Virus record (IMG/VR): IMGVR_UViG_3300032282_003876
Span: 1 to 32,670 of that record
Direction: 5' to 3' (one strand)
DNA: 32,670 nucleotides
DNA from: a virus
How positions within the stretch are numbered: the stretch's first letter is position 1; the number at the start of each line of letters is the position of its first letter. The position numbers and the translations under genes were made by a program. The notes under the pieces were generated by a model. The model saw only the letters and a program-made list of their open reading frames with translations. It had not been told where the DNA came from and ran no database searches. This document shows, piece by piece, positions 21,516-31,870 of the stretch.

Positions 21516-21932
21516 ATGAATGAAGTAATTGGGTTTACCTGTGGTGCATTTGACTTATTGCACCCAGGACACATACACTTTCTAAATGAGTGTAGTAAAC
21601 ATTGTGAGGAATTAATTGTAGGTTTACATTCTAATCCACAACTAGATCGAGATTGGAAGAATAAACCTATTCAAAGTATGTATGAACGATATGTTCAACT
21701 TGATGGGCTAAGATTTATAGATCAAATTATTCCATACGATACAGAATATGATCTATTAAATATGATGGGTACATTAACTATCAATAAACGATTTGTCGGA
21801 ACCGAGTATAAAGATCAAGAACTTACGGGTCAACATATTTGTGATCTATTAAATATTGAAATCATATATATTCCAAGATATCATCAATATAGTTCAACAG
21901 AACTAAGAAATAGACTTAAAGGTATTACATAA
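21516..21932 (+). CDS. cytidylyltransferase-like nucleotidyltransferase
   Basis: This 138-residue protein of the TagD/HldE-C family transfers a nucleotide to a sugar phosphate. GFTCGAFDLLHPGHIHFL holds the HxGH motif (His16, His19) and YSSTELRNRL is the closing SSTxLR motif. Its size matches a single-domain enzyme. In the operon of heptose genes, the most likely substrate is a heptose 1-phosphate (as HldE C-domain or HddC make ADP- or GDP-heptose), but glycerol-3-phosphate or another polyol is possible. Its stop overlaps the methyltransferase start. Confidence 0.85.
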   Translation: MNEVIGFTCGAFDLLHPGHIHFLNECSKHCEELIVGLHSNPQLDRDWKNKPIQSMYERYVQLDGLRFIDQIIPYDTEYDLLNMMGTLTINKRFVGTEYKDQELTGQHICDLLNIEIIYIPRYHQYSSTELRNRLKGIT

Positions 21933-22627
21933 TGGGCATTATTAGATTTAGTGACGAAGAAGTATTCAGCACTGATAGTCAAGAATATGATATTCTGCAA
22001 CGTGCAGTACTACAATGCAAAGGTGTTCCAGGTGCTGTAGTTGAAATTGGGACTCGCCGTGGTGGTTCAGCCAAAATTATTATTGATAGCTTAGCTATGA
22101 ATCAAGATACAGATCGTTCAATGTTCTGTATTGATCCATACGGTAATATTGAAATTGAATGCACCAATATGAATATCACTCATCATGTGCCAGGCGTAGC
22201 TACTGAGGGTGATCCAATGTCAAAAGAGATTACCAAACCGCTTAGGTTTGATTATGATAATAGCATGCGAAATCGAATCATTCCTTCACTTTATTATTAT
22301 GCTTATAATAAAGGACTAAATTTTGCATTCTTCTGCATGGAAGATTCAGAGTTCTTTAATCGGTTTGCAGATGGAGTTCCGGTATATAATAATTTCAAGA
22401 AGTATGAAAATACTTATGCGTTTGTATTCTTTGATGGACCACATCATAATGAAGCAGTGGATCTTGAAACAAAATTCTTTCTAGATCGTTCAACTATTGG
22501 TACCGTATTTGTTGCAGATGATATCTGGATGTATGATCATGAGCGATTTGAAACCATGATTTATGCGCAAGGTTTTAAAGTCCTTGAAAAAGGGCAAGTA
22601 AAAGCTTCATATGTAAAGGTTTCATAA
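21932..22627 (+). CDS. class I SAM-dependent methyltransferase
   Basis: This 231-residue protein has the glycine-rich motif I VVEIGTRRGGSAKIIIDS (about 36-53), an acidic motif (FCIDPYG), and VFFDGPHHNEAVDLE, which resembles the TylF/macrocin-O-methyltransferase group. It lies between the nucleotidyltransferase and the GmhA-like isomerase with TAATG couplings on both sides, so it is probably part of the same pathway. O-methylation of the phage-made sugar is the simplest reading; O-methylation of lipid or DNA-linked sugar is possible. Confidence 0.8.
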   Translation: MGIIRFSDEEVFSTDSQEYDILQRAVLQCKGVPGAVVEIGTRRGGSAKIIIDSLAMNQDTDRSMFCIDPYGNIEIECTNMNITHHVPGVATEGDPMSKEITKPLRFDYDNSMRNRIIPSLYYYAYNKGLNFAFFCMEDSEFFNRFADGVPVYNNFKKYENTYAFVFFDGPHHNEAVDLETKFFLDRSTIGTVFVADDIWMYDHERFETMIYAQGFKVLEKGQVKASYVKVS

Positions 22628-23211
22628 TGTCATTTATTGAACATTATCTTAGTGAAGTAACTTTTACAACCAATAGTCTTTCAAGTGAAGATATTGAAAC
22701 AATTGTAAATTATCTAAAACAAGTAAGAGATAATGATGGTCGAGTCTTTGTTTTAGGTGTTGGTGGTTCGGCTGCAAATGCCTCACATATGGTAAATGAT
22801 CTACGAAAACTATGTGATATTGAAGCATATAGTCCAGTTGATAATGTATCAGAACTTACGGCTCGAGTAAATGATGAAGGATGGGAATATTTCTTTGAGC
22901 GTTGGCTCAAAACATCAAAGTTAACTGAATTTGATTGTATCTTTGTATTATCAGTAGGTGGTGGTAGTCAAGAACGAAATATTTCAGTTAATCTGATTAG
23001 AGCAATTGATCTAGCACATGATGTTGGTGCAGCAGTTGTAAGTATTGTTGGTAAACCTGATGGTTATGCAGCATTACATAGTGATGCATGTTGTGTCATT
23101 CCTGTATCAGATCAGACATTATTAACGCCAATTAGCGAAGCATTTCAAGCAATTGTTTGGCATGGTATTGTTTCTCATCCTGAACTTCAGCTAGCAAAGA
23201 CAACGTGGTAA
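22627..23211 (+). CDS. gmhA: phosphoheptose isomerase-like SIS protein
   Basis: GmhA converts sedoheptulose 7-phosphate to D-glycero-D-manno-heptose 7-phosphate. This 194-residue protein carries the SIS domain: VLGVGGSAANASHMVNDLRK (from residue 42), VLSVGGGSQERN near 114-125, the Thr/Glu element TPISEAFQAIVWH (about 172-184), and DNVSELTARVND in the middle, all typical of GmhA. The start overlaps the previous stop by one base and its end overlaps the GmhB gene by seven bases. Context and sequence agree on the heptose pathway. Confidence 0.85.
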   Translation: MSFIEHYLSEVTFTTNSLSSEDIETIVNYLKQVRDNDGRVFVLGVGGSAANASHMVNDLRKLCDIEAYSPVDNVSELTARVNDEGWEYFFERWLKTSKLTEFDCIFVLSVGGGSQERNISVNLIRAIDLAHDVGAAVVSIVGKPDGYAALHSDACCVIPVSDQTLLTPISEAFQAIVWHGIVSHPELQLAKTTW

Positions 23212-23732
23212 AGACAGTATTTCTAGATAGGGATGGAGTTATTAATCATCTTGTCAATCATAATGGCAAGATGACTGCTCCCTGGAAAGTTGAAGAATTT
23301 ATATTCATGTCTGGTGCTGTTCAATGTATTCGTAGATTCAAGAATTTTGGCAAAAGAGTAATAGTAATTACCAATCAACCAGACGTTCTTGATGGTAAAA
23401 TGACTCGTGAAACATTTGACATATTCAAAGATATGTTATATTATCTAAAGGTTGATGATGTATTCTGTGCAGAGCAGCGTGGAACAGAATTCTATAAACC
23501 AAATAATGGTATGCTCGAGCACTATATACAAAAATACGAGTTAAATAGAAATCATTGTGTATTGATTGGTGACACCTGGAAAGATATTGTAGCTGGGTAT
23601 AAAAGTAATATCACAACAATATATAGTTCATATGAGACATATACATCTCCTAAGGAATGGTCTCATATAAAACCGGCTCATACTGTAAAAAATATAACAG
23701 AAGCAACTAAATTAATTGAGGATATATTATGA
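23205..23732 (+). CDS. gmhB: HAD phosphatase, heptose-bisphosphate phosphatase-like
   Basis: GmhB removes the 7-phosphate from heptose 1,7-bisphosphate. The 175-residue protein starts at a GTG that overlaps the previous stop and begins MVKTVFLDRDGVIN, with the HAD nucleophile Asp8 and acid Asp10. ITNQPDVLDG supplies the motif II Thr, FYKPNNGML the motif III Lys, and LIGDTWKDI the motif IV acidic pair. Bacterial GmhB binds zinc through cysteines; here only scattered cysteines are visible and no clear CxH cluster, so zinc may be absent. Confidence 0.83.
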   Translation: MVKTVFLDRDGVINHLVNHNGKMTAPWKVEEFIFMSGAVQCIRRFKNFGKRVIVITNQPDVLDGKMTRETFDIFKDMLYYLKVDDVFCAEQRGTEFYKPNNGMLEHYIQKYELNRNHCVLIGDTWKDIVAGYKSNITTIYSSYETYTSPKEWSHIKPAHTVKNITEATKLIEDIL

Positions 23733-24472
23733 TTGATATCTATGCAGACGGCGCAGCAATGGATGGTATCGTTGAAGCATCAAAAAATAATAAGATCAAA
23801 GGATTTACAACAAATCCATCACTCATGAAAGCAGCAGGCATTAAAGATTATATGGGGTTTTGTGATAATGTTATTGCGTATTTAAAAGAATATCGACCAG
23901 ACACCAATATTAGTCTGGAAGTATTCTCGGATGATGAAACTGAAATGCTTGAACAAGCACTGAAGTTAAATCAAGTCGGACTCAATCATGATTATCCAGT
24001 CTATGTAAAGATTCCTGTTACATATACAAATGGTGAATTTACTATTAATGTTATTCAAAAGTTGCTTGAAAAGAATGTAAGAGTAAATGTTACAGCCGTC
24101 TTTACTCCATATCAAACAATGCATGTACTTGATGCTATTGGAACAAGTAAAGTACCAAGTATTATTTCAATTTTTGCTGGTAGAATTGCCGATGCTGGTA
24201 AAAATGCAGGATTGATTGTTTCAGAATGTGTAAAACTAAATAAGTTTCTTACGTCTGGTCTATCACGAAATCCTAATATTAAGTTTCTTTGGGCATCTAC
24301 ACGACAAGTTTATAACTATGTTGAAGCACAACTAGCAGGTTGTCATGTTATTACAATGACACCAGATGTTATTAAAAAATTATCTAATCTTGATAAAAAT
24401 TTGACCGAGTATTCACTTGAGACAGTCAAGATGTTTAGAGATGATGCCATTAAGTCAGGATATACAATCTAA
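23729..24472 (+). CDS. tal: transaldolase (TalC-type)
   Basis: This 247-residue enzyme moves a dihydroxyacetone unit, and can form sedoheptulose 7-phosphate. It has GFTTNPSLM (25-33), the Schiff-base lysine in YVKIP (Lys94), VTAVFTPYQTM, and SIFAGRIADAG, all of the transaldolase/fructose-6-phosphate aldolase family. Related cyanophage genes are usually linked to host carbon metabolism. Here the gene is set between GmhB and a glycosyltransferase with ATGA/TAATG overlaps, which suggests it supplies the S7P substrate for the heptose enzymes. Confidence 0.9.
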   Translation: MIDIYADGAAMDGIVEASKNNKIKGFTTNPSLMKAAGIKDYMGFCDNVIAYLKEYRPDTNISLEVFSDDETEMLEQALKLNQVGLNHDYPVYVKIPVTYTNGEFTINVIQKLLEKNVRVNVTAVFTPYQTMHVLDAIGTSKVPSIISIFAGRIADAGKNAGLIVSECVKLNKFLTSGLSRNPNIKFLWASTRQVYNYVEAQLAGCHVITMTPDVIKKLSNLDKNLTEYSLETVKMFRDDAIKSGYTI

Positions 24473-25464
24473 TGAGTATGTTTGAAGAAAATGAAGTTTC
24501 AAAGAATGCCTTTGGTGGTACTGAACTAGCAAAGAGAAAACTAGCAGCCATTCTTGATCCAAGTCTACTAAATGACTTTCAGGTAGTTTGTTCCAGACCA
24601 AGAGACTTGGATGAATCAAAGATTAGAATTTTCTTTGCCAACGACCTGGCTACCGATCCAGAGTCTGCCAAGTTTCGTGAAGAATCATTCCGAGATAAAT
24701 TTCATAAGTTTGTCTTTATTTCTAATTGGCAAATGAGCCAATATCAACTAGTACATGGTATTCCATATGATACCAAGAGTATTGTACTAGAATCTGGTAT
24801 TGATATTGCACCCGAGACTGTCAAAAGTAAGGATAAAATTCGTCTGGTCTATACATCAACACCACAACGTGGTCTTGATATTCTTGTTCCAGTCTTTAAA
24901 CATCTAGCAGAAAAATATCCCGATATTCATCTTGATGTATTTTCTAGTTTCAAGATTTATGGTTGGGATGATGCCGATAAGCAATTTGAACCATTATATG
25001 ATGAAATCCGTAATCATCCACAAATGACTTATCACGGCTTTGTGCCTAATGATACACTTCGTTCAACATTAAATGATTGTCATATCTTTGCTTATCCATC
25101 TACATGGGTTGAGACTAGTTGCCGAGCAATGCTAGAAGCAATGACTGCTGGTCTAGTTTGTGTGCATCCAAATCTTGGTGCATTGCCAGATACATCTGGT
25201 TCACTCAATGTAATGTATCAAGGCTCAATGGATAAAAATGAACATGCTAATATCTTTAATGCTCATTTAGAAGCAGCAATTAATTTTGTTAAGAATGATG
25301 CACATGTAAGTATGGTTCAATTTAATAAGACTTATATTGATAGTCGGTTTGGTATTGATAGAATCAAGCGACAATGGGAAACGATGCTCAAGGATCTACT
25401 TAATAGATACCCTACAGAAGAGAGTCGTAGTTTTCCCAAACAACAATTTGTATATCGTACATGA
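24472..25464 (+). CDS. GT4-like glycosyltransferase
   Basis: This 330-residue GT-B-type enzyme has TPQRGLDILVPVFKHLAEKY and FVPNDTLRSTLNDC in its C-terminal nucleotide-sugar domain, and ETSCRAMLEAMTAGLVCVHP, which gives the Glu-x7-Glu motif of GT4 enzymes. The N-terminal Gly-rich acceptor loop (NAFGGTELAKRKL) is present. No membrane segment is seen. It probably transfers the activated sugar made by the neighbouring enzymes; the acceptor (LPS, a protein or DNA) is unknown. The ends overlap both neighbours. Confidence 0.85.
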   Translation: MSMFEENEVSKNAFGGTELAKRKLAAILDPSLLNDFQVVCSRPRDLDESKIRIFFANDLATDPESAKFREESFRDKFHKFVFISNWQMSQYQLVHGIPYDTKSIVLESGIDIAPETVKSKDKIRLVYTSTPQRGLDILVPVFKHLAEKYPDIHLDVFSSFKIYGWDDADKQFEPLYDEIRNHPQMTYHGFVPNDTLRSTLNDCHIFAYPSTWVETSCRAMLEAMTAGLVCVHPNLGALPDTSGSLNVMYQGSMDKNEHANIFNAHLEAAINFVKNDAHVSMVQFNKTYIDSRFGIDRIKRQWETMLKDLLNRYPTEESRSFPKQQFVYRT

Positions 25465-26444
25465 TTATTTCTAAAACCCCATTAAGAATTAGTTTCTTTT
25501 CTGGTGGCAGTGACTTACCGGCTTTCTATAGGAGAGCCGAGGGTGCTGCCCTTTCAGTTACTATTGACAAATACATATATGTTATGGCTCATAGTAAATC
25601 ACGAGGTAACTATGTAACTGCATTTGATGGTATTAATGATTATGATACATTGGACTCAATGACCCATGATATTACTCGTGAAACATTAAAAGAATATAGA
25701 ATCAAGAATAAAGTCCATGTAGCATCTATTTCAGATATCCCAGGTAAAGGCTCTGGTCTTGGTAGTTCTTCATCGTTTACAGTTGGTTTAATTAATGCTT
25801 TAAAAGAATGTTATGAACCAGTTTCATTGGCAGAACAAGCTTGTAATATTGAAATGAATCGTTGTGAATATCCAGTTGGTAAACAAGATCAATATGCTGC
25901 AGCAGTTGGTGGTCTAAATTTATTCAAGTTTTCAAGTGATCGTGTTGCATCATCACTCTTAAATATCTCTAAAGAGACTATCGCTAAACTACATGATAAT
26001 TTACTATTAGTTTATACAGGTATTTCACGATCTGCCAATAAAATTCTATCAGAACAATCTAAGTCTATGACTGATGATGATAAATTCAATCTTGTCATGA
26101 ATGGTCGTAATAAGGCTATCTTTGCCGCAGACTTACTAGAGCGTGGTGATCTAGATACATTTGGTGATTTGTTACATCAAGCATGGTTAGATAAAAAGAA
26201 TGTGGCATCTGGCATTACTAGTGAAGCAATTGATCACATTTATGATGTAGCTATGTTAAATGGTGCTCTTGGTGGTAAGATTTTAGGTGCTGGTGGTGGC
26301 GGTTTTATGATCTTCTACTGTGAATCTAATAAGAAAGAAGAATTATCTTCTATTCTAGGTAAAAAAACTAGAGCTGTTACATATGATTTTAACTTTACAA
26401 GAGAAGGATCAAAAGTTGTATATGCAGATGAGATCCTATCATAA
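25461..26444 (+). CDS. hddA: GHMP kinase, heptose 7-phosphate kinase-like (HddA)
   Basis: This 327-residue GHMP kinase begins MIISKTPLRISFFSGGSDLP, the typical start of HddA-type sugar kinases. IPGKGSGLGSSSSFTVGLIN (94-113) is the ATP loop, YPVGKQDQYAAAVGG gives the Asp and substrate loop, and KILGAGGGGFMIFY is motif 3. HddA adds the 1-phosphate to D-glycero-D-manno-heptose 7-phosphate. With GmhA, GmhB, transaldolase and a nucleotidyltransferase encoded just upstream, the family call is well supported. The stop precedes a strong promoter. Confidence 0.88.
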   Translation: MIISKTPLRISFFSGGSDLPAFYRRAEGAALSVTIDKYIYVMAHSKSRGNYVTAFDGINDYDTLDSMTHDITRETLKEYRIKNKVHVASISDIPGKGSGLGSSSSFTVGLINALKECYEPVSLAEQACNIEMNRCEYPVGKQDQYAAAVGGLNLFKFSSDRVASSLLNISKETIAKLHDNLLLVYTGISRSANKILSEQSKSMTDDDKFNLVMNGRNKAIFAADLLERGDLDTFGDLLHQAWLDKKNVASGITSEAIDHIYDVAMLNGALGGKILGAGGGGFMIFYCESNKKEELSSILGKKTRAVTYDFNFTREGSKVVYADEILS

Positions 26445-28611: not shown

Positions 28612-29355
28612 ATGTCAGCACCACCTAAAAAAAGACCATCACGTAAAGAGAGAAGACTACAAAAACAGAATGGAGAGGGAGTTGCAGAGAAATTAAACTT
28701 TACTCTCCGTGAAGTTATACCTCTGACAGAAAACCAAAAACTTACATTTGAAGCTTATAGAAATAATAAAAATCTAATGCTGCATGGTATAGCTGGTACT
28801 GGCAAATCATATATTTCGTTATATCTAGCGCTCAATCAAATATTAAATTCTGAGACAGAATATAAAAAAATATATATTGTTCGTTCCATTGTGCCTGTGA
28901 GGGACGTAGGATTTTTACCTGGGACTAATAAGGAAAAGGCTAAAGTCTATGAAGCACCTTATTATGCAATTTGTTCAGAGTTATTTGGTCGTAGCGATGC
29001 TTATGAATATCTAAAAAGTAAAAATATGATTGAGTTCATGTCAACATCATTTATTCGTGGTACTACATTAAATGATTGTATAGTCATTATGGACGAATGC
29101 CAGAATGCAACATTACATGAATTGGATTCAGTTGTTACTCGAGTAGGAAAAAATTGTAAAATTATATTCTCGGGTGATTTTACTCAGTCAGACTTTACTA
29201 ATGATAAAGATAGATATGGTGTTACTCAATTTATTAAAATTATTAGAAATATAAAATCATTTAGATTTATTGAATTTAACAAGAATGATATTTTAAGAAG
29301 TGATTTGGTTCGTGATTATATTATTGAAAAAGATAGGTTAGGTATATCAACGTGA
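28612..29355 (+). CDS. phoH: PhoH-like ATPase
   Basis: PhoH proteins are P-loop ATPases of the phosphate-starvation regulon in many bacteria and are common in marine phages; their exact role in infection is unsettled (an RNA-associated helicase is one idea). The 247-residue product has a basic N-terminus, Walker A GIAGTGKS (59-66), PVRDVGFLPG, Walker B IVIMDECQN, and the IIFSGDFTQSD sensor. Its nearby lipid-remodelling genes fit a phosphate-stress theme, though PhoH alone does not prove it. Its stop overlaps the GTG of the next gene. Confidence 0.9.
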   Translation: MSAPPKKRPSRKERRLQKQNGEGVAEKLNFTLREVIPLTENQKLTFEAYRNNKNLMLHGIAGTGKSYISLYLALNQILNSETEYKKIYIVRSIVPVRDVGFLPGTNKEKAKVYEAPYYAICSELFGRSDAYEYLKSKNMIEFMSTSFIRGTTLNDCIVIMDECQNATLHELDSVVTRVGKNCKIIFSGDFTQSDFTNDKDRYGVTQFIKIIRNIKSFRFIEFNKNDILRSDLVRDYIIEKDRLGIST

Positions 29356-30053: not shown

Positions 30054-30842
30054 ATGTTAAATAATAAATATAGAAGCATTTTTATCAGTGATATACACCT
30101 TGGTAGTAGAGCATGTCAGGCAGATTTATTAACACAATTTTTAAAAGTAAATACTTGTCAAAATTTATATTTGGTAGGTGATATATTTGATTTATGGAAA
30201 CTTAAAGATAGTAGATATTGGCCACAATCCCATAGTAATGTAATAAGAAGATTTCTTACTTCATCTAAAAGAGGTACAAAAATATACTATATCTTAGGCA
30301 ATCATGATGAATATTTTAGGACCTGGATATCAGATATGAATATATTTGGAAATATAATTGTGGCAAATAGTTTTGATCATTACACAGTTAATAACCAAAG
30401 ATTCCTTGTTACACATGGGGACATGTTTGATGGTATTGTTCGACATCATAAATGGTTAAGTCATTTGGGTGATAAAGCACATACATTTGTGTTATGGTTA
30501 AACACCGGTTTAAATAATTTACGCCGAATACTTGGTAAAGATTATTGGAGTTTTAGTAGTTTTTTAAAAACAAATACTAAACAAGCAATGGCGTTTATAA
30601 TAAATTATGAATATAATTTAATAAAATATGCTCGAGATGAAGCATATCATGGTGTAATATGTGGTCATATACATACTCCAACAATAAAGATTGATGAAGA
30701 TGGATTTGTATATTTTAATACAGGTGATTGGTGTGAGACTATTAGCGCTTTAGTTGAAAATCATGATGGTACATGGGAATTATTAGTATGGGATACTAAT
30801 ATTAATGATATGAAGGTAACATCAACATGGGGCATCAAATGA
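30054..30842 (+). CDS. plcP: metallophosphoesterase, PlcP/LpxH-like phospholipase candidate
   Basis: This 262-residue enzyme has a complete calcineurin-type metal site: SDIHLG (Asp13, His15), LVGDIFD (Asp43), LGNHDE (Asn83, His84), VTHGDMFD (His121) and ICGHIHTP (His205, His207). The strands YWPQSH and KYARDEAYHGVICGH match the PlcP subset of the LpxH superfamily, which in marine alphaproteobacteria removes phosphate headgroups from phospholipids, better than E. coli LpxH, from memory. The next gene, a GT4 glycosyltransferase, completes the PlcP-Agt arrangement. UDP-diacylglucosamine hydrolysis (true LpxH) is the alternative. There is no membrane segment, which fits a peripheral enzyme. Confidence 0.85.
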   Translation: MLNNKYRSIFISDIHLGSRACQADLLTQFLKVNTCQNLYLVGDIFDLWKLKDSRYWPQSHSNVIRRFLTSSKRGTKIYYILGNHDEYFRTWISDMNIFGNIIVANSFDHYTVNNQRFLVTHGDMFDGIVRHHKWLSHLGDKAHTFVLWLNTGLNNLRRILGKDYWSFSSFLKTNTKQAMAFIINYEYNLIKYARDEAYHGVICGHIHTPTIKIDEDGFVYFNTGDWCETISALVENHDGTWELLVWDTNINDMKVTSTWGIK

Positions 30843-31834
30843 GATTGATTATAATAGATGATAATATGCCAAATCAGGTAAATGGTGTAGTAACAACTTT
30901 CAATTATCTTAAAAATGAATTATTTTCACGTGACAATATAAATGTAAATCACATTACACCTTATCAATTTTATAATATACCTGCTATGGTTTATCCTGGA
31001 GCAAGACTACCTATTAATTTATGGAAACTTGAAAATTATATAAAATCATATAATCCAACACACTTACATATTTGCACAGAAGGTTTGCTTGGACTAACTG
31101 CCAGATCCATATTCAGGAAACATGGATGGAATTATACAACGAGTTCTCACACTCGTTGGGATGAATACTTGGCAAAAACACTAAAAATAAAGCCAAATAT
31201 TGGTATGAAATATATGAAATGGTTTCATAAATATAGCTATTCAGTATTGGTAAATACAAAATCTATTGCAACTGAATTAGAATTAAAAGGGTGGAAAAAT
31301 TTAAAAATATGGACCCGTGGTACTGATAAAGATCTTTTTTCCTTCAATGATCATACACTAACTGATAAACCTACACTTCTAACAGTTGGTAGAATCAGTA
31401 AGGAAAAAAATATAGATGCTTTTTGCAACTTATCAAAAACAAACCAATATAAGTTAATATGTGTAGGTGATGGACCAGAATTAAATCGACTGAGAAAACA
31501 ATATCCTGATGTTATTTTTTTAGGTGAATTAAAAGGAAAAGAACTAGCGGAACAGTATAAAATGGCTGATTGTTTTGTCTTTACTAGTATTACCGATACA
31601 TTTGGTATGGTTATGATTGAAAGTATGTCAACAGGTACACCAATAGCAGCTTATCCAGTTCAAGCACCTAAGGATATTATAGAGCAGGGTATTACCGGAT
31701 TTTTACATAATGATCTTAATATTGCTATTGATAATTGTTTATCTATACCAAGAAAAACAGTACATGATGGTAGTAAAAAATGGTGTTGGAAAAAAACCAC
31801 AGATATATTTTTAAATTCATTAATAGAAAAATAA
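30839..31834 (+). CDS. agt: GT4 glycosyltransferase, Agt/SqdX-like glycolipid synthase candidate
   Basis: This 331-residue GT-B enzyme starts at the ATG overlapping the plcP stop (ATGA). An in-frame ATG at 30827 lies upstream. NQVNGVVTTFNYL, HICTEGLLGLTARSIFRKHG and TSSHTRWDEY are typical of GT4 enzymes that act on diacylglycerol (Agt, SqdX). The nucleotide-sugar half has LLTVGRISKEKNIDAF, VGDGPELNRL and the Glu-x7-Glu type block DTFGMVMIESMSTGTPIAAY. With PlcP this would make glucosyl- or glucuronosyl-diacylglycerol. A role in LPS or teichoic-type glycosylation is the alternative. Confidence 0.85.
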   Translation: MRLIIIDDNMPNQVNGVVTTFNYLKNELFSRDNINVNHITPYQFYNIPAMVYPGARLPINLWKLENYIKSYNPTHLHICTEGLLGLTARSIFRKHGWNYTTSSHTRWDEYLAKTLKIKPNIGMKYMKWFHKYSYSVLVNTKSIATELELKGWKNLKIWTRGTDKDLFSFNDHTLTDKPTLLTVGRISKEKNIDAFCNLSKTNQYKLICVGDGPELNRLRKQYPDVIFLGELKGKELAEQYKMADCFVFTSITDTFGMVMIESMSTGTPIAAYPVQAPKDIIEQGITGFLHNDLNIAIDNCLSIPRKTVHDGSKKWCWKKTTDIFLNSLIEK

Positions 31835-31836
31835 GT

Positions 31837-31870
31837 AAAAAGCCCTGGAATAAACCAGGGCTTTATTTTT
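31837..31870. terminator. bidirectional rho-independent terminator
   Basis: AAAGCCCTGG and CCAGGGCTTT pair around an AATAAA loop, with T-runs on both sides (A-rich left side, ATTTTT right). It lies between the convergent agt and the - strand gene, so it can stop transcripts from both directions. Confidence 0.9.

Follow-up and report, generated by a model that had tools for sequence, protein, structure and literature searches.

Two overlapping genes near the end of a viral contig raise the question of whether a bacteriophage can carry the enzymes with which bacteria remodel their membrane lipids and, if so, what it would gain from them. The contig, 32,670 bases long and recorded in IMG/VR as a virus fragment, is referred to in full as the window. 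A first-pass annotation had proposed that the genes encode a metallophosphoesterase of the PlcP/LpxH type and a GT4 glycosyltransferase acting on diacylglycerol. In SAR11 bacteria, PlcP and Agt have been experimentally tied to a lipid-remodeling pathway (PMC4796936, PMC8231724). Sequence comparisons give strong support to the identity of the window pair as PlcP and Agt types, and it is likely that they form a phage-borne lipid-remodeling cassette of the bacterial PlcP-Agt type, with the corresponding biochemical function.

Layout of the locus and identity of its two products

The features of the locus are as follows:

28612..29355, + strand: PhoH-like ATPase gene (context); PF02562 3.2e-46, phrog_170 274 bits
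29352..30041, + strand: phage exonuclease (context); phrog_298 1.5e-62; 12 nt before plcP
30054..30842, + strand: metallophosphoesterase of the PlcP type (predicted lipid-remodeling phospholipase C); 262 aa; Pfam Metallophos 3.6e-11
30839..31834, + strand: Agt-type GT4 (predicted diacylglycerol glycosyltransferase); 331 aa; Glycos_transf_1 3.2e-23, Glyco_transf_4 1.2e-9
31839..31864, both strands: terminator-like hairpin; 10-pair stem, 6-nt loop, T-rich tail; consensus match only

Both open reading frames are intact at these coordinates, and the reported overlap of the agt start with the plcP stop (ATGA) was confirmed; agt encodes 331 aa when translated from the start codon inside the ATGA, and an alternative start at 30827 would yield 335 aa. 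The hairpin directly behind agt closes the plcP-agt unit, while the spacing of the upstream genes indicates that the exonuclease and plcP are probably carried on one transcript. PhoH, described earlier as lying just upstream, is indeed encoded there but is not adjacent, as the exonuclease gene lies between. PhoH is widespread in phages and therefore constitutes weak evidence for phosphate physiology. The GC content of the pair (0.29), slightly below the window mean (0.34), decides nothing on recent acquisition.

Strong matches to phage families were obtained in the window for a T4-type DnaB helicase, a primase, NrdA, PhoH and the exonuclease, and NrdB, ThyX and RNase H are also encoded. The same phage occurs in a second assembly (L004), where its PlcP differs by one residue. 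Nothing was found in the window phage pointing to the marine origin or the alphaproteobacterial host evoked by the first reading. The contig end (32474-32670) is occupied by at least 11 tandem copies of a 12-nt unit (GACTTGATCC-like), which read on the minus strand as a small, repetitive ORF.

The plcP product displays all seven metal ligands (D13, H15, D43, N83, H121, H205 and H207), in agreement with the earlier reading, and a catalytic-type His84 within a GNHD motif; in an alignment, these residues are invariant across 31 homologues. A competing reading holds that the locus modifies lipopolysaccharide (LPS), with PlcP as an LpxH-like lipid A enzyme and the GT4 as an LPS core or O-antigen transferase, as proposed for the glycosyltransferases of pelagimyophages. 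This reading draws on database names that say LpxH, on the many LPS-type transferases in pelagimyophages (PMC7029224), and on structure, since LpxH folds are the nearest solved structures to the AF2 model of the window PlcP (pLDDT 85, ~19% identity), a proximity expected of a sister family. The window PlcP shares with LpxH, the UDP-2,3-diacylglucosamine hydrolase, the metallophosphoesterase fold with its helical insertion and the metal ligands. However, LpxH alone among these enzymes replaces His by Arg in the GN(H/R)D motif, where it grips the phosphate of lipid X (PMC5016852). This LpxH-specific Arg is missing from the window PlcP, which carries GNHD like 64 phage and 57 cellular homologues, whereas GNRD is present in 6/6 LpxHs, a set comprising the E. 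coli enzyme and those of other genomes, some of which also encode a PlcP.

Similarity scores point in the same direction. The window PlcP is 40% identical to SAR11 PlcP (209 bits), against ~23% identity and at most 47 bits for true LpxHs, and LpxH models gave it 55 and 42 bits, far under their curated cut-offs of 134 and 190. In a quick tree (SH-aLRT only), in which the window protein groups with bacterial PlcP and named PlcPs such as MED193 are not included, the six true LpxHs were split from the PlcPs with 100% support. The same tree placed phage PlcPs in a phage-only clade of 25 rows (98%), with the window inside a group of four phage rows (100%). Among bacterial precedents, the PlcP-like paralogue LpxH2 of P. 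aeruginosa failed to substitute for the LpxH of E. coli (PMC3087551). A placement of the window protein with true LpxH was looked for and is absent; motif, sub-cut-off scores and tree together lead to the rejection of that identity.

For the second enzyme, comparison was made with GTcp of SAR11 HTCC7211, which was mutated at fifteen residues; among them, H104/D256, R163 and W320 are essential for activity and line the docked diacylglycerol (PMC8231724). The window GT4 retains 15/15 of these residues, including the H104/D256 dyad and the diacylglycerol-pocket residues R163 and W320, together with the UDP-sugar motifs (numbering mapped by way of a SAR11 relative, with a motif check). On average, phage Agts keep 14.5 of the 15, cellular Agts 13.9, and other GT4s 7.1 (range 3-11), the last being 18 proteins from the same bacterial genomes as the cellular Agts. 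A 99% split separates the Agt group from these 18 in a tree in which the other GT4s form long branches and SqdX is not included. The AF2 model (pLDDT 94) adopts a GT-B fold with BshA, MshA and PimB' as neighbors. Overall identity of the window pair to characterized-type enzymes is 37-40%. The proposal of a GT4 of the diacylglycerol-acting type is thus upheld at the level of residues and tree, and the same two lines lead to the rejection of an LPS-type GT4, whose company in the tree was looked for and not seen. With the pairing also conserved as in bacterial plcP-agt, modification of LPS appears a highly improbable role for the locus.

Conservation of the pair and its partner enzymes in phages

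A single-sequence scan for PlcP relatives retrieved only the same phage in the other assembly; profile scans retrieved hundreds. A profile search of viral contigs with Agt only yielded at least 558 related stretches, the best 80 of which represent 72 distinct loci. In 69/69 of the distinct loci with upstream room, plcP lies directly upstream of agt on the same strand, at a spacing of at most 150 nt in 62 and with overlapping genes in 27; no Agt without PlcP was seen among these 69, drawn from the best 80 of at least 558. The count includes L062 after inspection, where the ORF calls overlap and the tblastn matches overlap by 4 nt. Since these loci were selected by Agt, the constant presence of PlcP upstream argues that the pairing is not due to chance, and a conserved pairing is likewise found in bacterial plcP-agt. 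Dozens of other phages carry the predicted pair, in some cases preceded by putative phosphate-starvation switches.

Selection by PlcP offers a complementary view. This profile search returned 73 distinct loci: Agt follows plcP in 42 and is absent there from 27, and the remaining 4 are cut off. In 19 of the PlcP-selected viral loci, a GT2 occupies the Agt slot behind plcP, and none of these also carries Agt. The GT2 is a 236-aa protein with weak GT21 similarity (L308:3749-4456, L256:3922-4629 and 17 further viral loci). That Agt was not seen without PlcP in these loci, while PlcP is followed by either of two unrelated transferases and never by both, would be expected if PlcP makes the acceptor on which both transferases act.

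This variation of the partner between GT4 and GT2 can also be cited for another proposal, namely that the products form a glycolipid with a different acceptor or product, for example a heptosyl lipid from the phage's own cassette, serving a phage-specific surface coat. Phage PlcPs and Agts fall largely in their own clades, and a gene run at 21516-26444 of the window resembles nucleotide-heptose synthesis, with cytidylyltransferase-like, methyltransferase, SIS (GmhA-like), HAD phosphatase (GmhB-like), transaldolase, second GT4 and GHMP kinase genes. Nevertheless, all GTcp donor and diacylglycerol residues are kept in the window Agt, and the heptose-like cassette lies 3.6 kb away with a GT4 of its own, so a different glycolipid seems unlikely. 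The heptose-like cassette itself may serve surface or DNA glycosylation.

The phage character of the pair-bearing records was assessed by marker proteins. Of 33 records, nearly all of them pair-bearing, 11 gave a Gp23 capsid match over the cut-off, one of the 11 being the bacterial-labeled assembly behind L097; terminase matches were found in 21/47. Terminase matches in G032, G037, G042, G048, G049, G055 and G059 (behind L032-L090) cross one in-frame TAG/TAA, perhaps reflecting an intron, recoding or merely alignment overrun. One GenBank record, MT836169.1 (L003), a human-faecal 'Bacteriophage sp.', was left out as its neighboring genes look bacterial, with ORFs that by eye resemble rnpA, tyrosyl-tRNA synthetase, polyphosphate kinase and Ppx.

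The nearest large relative is a 328-kb contig with Gp23, terminase and PstS, whose NrdA is 58% identical to that of the window. In this contig and in L014 the pair occupies a different place, with DNA polymerase B in the vicinity, and GTP cyclohydrolase is a neighbor in L018; since the surroundings differ and the pair is kept, the two genes travel together.

Several further genes were observed around phage plcP and agt. In the nearest relatives, a gene of ~170 aa ends 2 nt before plcP (L014:4686-5213, L018:4710-5213) and has no Pfam match; its reading in L018 as a CYTH triphosphatase found no Pfam support. At L010:5999-6475, the agt end is overlapped by a gene whose 158-aa product seems to carry a signal peptide and has no Pfam match. 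A BPL_N/glutamine-amidotransferase-like gene recurs near phage plcP (L308:2352-2996, L276:2366-2998 and L219), and in L219 it is preceded at 116 nt by an exact PHO-box-like match.

Related proteins also occur in isolates. Pelagibacter phage Mosig EXVC030M (MT647606) encodes a PlcP-like protein 46% identical to that of the window, annotated as a putative UDP-2,3-diacylglucosamine hydrolase and located beside a divergent phosphate-transporter gene, and cyanophage S-SRM01 holds a more distant PlcP copy (33%). Unlike the window, neither Mosig nor S-SRM01 has an Agt adjoining the plcP-like gene.

Evidence on a possible link to phosphorus

The first-pass annotation had also suggested that the pair serves phosphorus supply, an idea that relatives of the window phage support and that its own upstream region does not. 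Near the window plcP start, no PHO box clearly better than shuffled sequences was detected; the nearest kin likewise lack one, and none before Mosig plcP was convincing. The strict CTGTCAT consensus clearly matched only in the bacterial control HTCC5015, and phages needed a degenerate model; with a tandem half-site, the PHO-box model recovered the expected kind of site in that control. In phages, a PHO-box-like element lies 21-34 nt upstream of 14/52 non-redundant plcP genes, as opposed to 7/606 other ORFs, and 23/104 phage plcP genes are preceded by such elements, versus 2 with the reversed motif. After loci more than 80% identical were collapsed, 5/48 remained against 0/48 for the reversed motif (p = 0.056), so that independent cases are few.

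Exact matches were searched for in 31 phage records and numbered 16, compared with 4 for the reversed pattern. Nine of the 16 sites are no more than 60 nt away from plcP or pstS, and one more is 366 nt before plcP; several of these belong to near-identical phages, of which about four are distinct. In two of the groups, the box of plcP is separated from that of pstS by 2 and 3.5 kb. PstS was detected over the cut-off in 7/45 phage records, including the nearest large relative; most records are fragments, and most have no detected pstS. In cyanophages, earlier predictions of PHO boxes did not hold up (PMC10976474).

Taken together, PHO-box-like elements and pstS make a use in phosphorus acquisition probable for the relatives that carry them, and a similar role may extend to the window phage, which has no PHO box. 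This lack of a box, along with the position of the window pair among genes resembling a sugar-nucleotide cassette, leaves some room for the view that the enzymes act as predicted and that the benefit resides in an altered membrane charge or curvature, leading to exclusion of rival phages, resistance to defense or control of lysis timing. Lipid remodeling has been reported, from unpublished data, to affect phage adsorption in P. aeruginosa (PMC9804370). The elements in relatives point instead to phosphorus, and a membrane benefit standing in its place is possible but rather doubtful; the two benefits are mutually compatible.

Proposed role and relation to known systems

For the preferred reading, lipid remodeling in the service of phosphorus supply, we infer what each enzyme does, which sugar donor is used, that the two genes are co-expressed and how the phage benefits. 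PlcP would cleave the phosphate-bearing headgroup off phosphatidylglycerol (PG) and phosphatidylethanolamine (PE) of the host, yielding diacylglycerol and a phospho-alcohol. Agt would glycosylate this diacylglycerol, with UDP-glucose, UDP-galactose or UDP-glucuronate as the sugar donor, so that the bilayer survives and the membrane keeps its integrity until the latent period is over. The initial suggestion of a direct release of phosphate by PlcP has to be amended, as its product would be a phospho-headgroup and not free phosphate, and another step is therefore needed before the phosphorus reaches DNA. After further hydrolysis by other enzymes, lipid phosphorus could feed nucleotides and DNA in phosphorus-poor cells.

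The closest known counterpart is the bacterial PlcP-Agt system (SAR11 HTCC7211; P. aeruginosa PA3219/PA3218; PMC4796936, PMC8231724, PMC8528852), which the window pair resembles in gene order, in close or overlapping genes, in the PlcP motif and in 15/15 Agt residues. PHO-box-like elements, a possible further likeness, appear in a subset of phages, the window itself having none. The phage copies differ in being carried by phages, in their largely separate clades and in the replacement of Agt by GT2 in some. Cyanophages carry the phosphate-stress genes pstS, phoA and phoH (PMC10976474, PMC3037559), which are similarly phosphorus genes of T4-like phages and partly under host PhoB, but act on uptake or nucleotide recycling, whereas plcP-agt would act on membrane lipids. 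Glycosyltransferases are also known from the marine T4-like pelagimyophages; these are mainly GT8, are ascribed to LPS, and have no reported PlcP pairing (PMC7029224).

Phosphorus genes in phages and the bacterial PlcP-Agt pathway are already known. No description was found of plcP and agt combined in phages, of how far this combination extends, of GT2 as the alternative partner or of the link to pstS. A literature search with preprints and most subscription papers outside its scope found no paper on a phage plcP-agt cassette, only host-side lipid remodeling, and, within the same scope, none combining plcP with the term 'auxiliary metabolic gene'. In two virome surveys, lpxH is entered among the LPS genes (PMC9611531, PMC10653327); our guess is that these entries are PlcPs, and a re-reading of such gene lists is suggested. 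Mosig and its isolation host HTCC1062, reported to lack plcP (PMC4796936), provide a cultured system for the PlcP half.

In a broader perspective, the odds slightly favor the view that a phosphate-starvation module of PstS, PlcP and a GT4 or GT2 lipid glycosyltransferase, in some cases switched by host PhoB, is widespread in T4-like and jumbo phages infecting aquatic bacteria, that it turns host phospholipids into glycolipids during infection and that it has stayed hidden under the LPS gene name 'lpxH'. The spread of the pair, with PHO-box-like elements in a subset of phages, suggests that under phosphorus shortage viruses remodel the membrane of their host. The phosphorus genes known so far from phages concern only uptake or nucleotide recycling; the mining of phospholipid phosphorus with a glycolipid refill would, if true, represent a new rewiring of host metabolism, with a bearing on the source of viral DNA phosphorus in phosphorus-poor waters.
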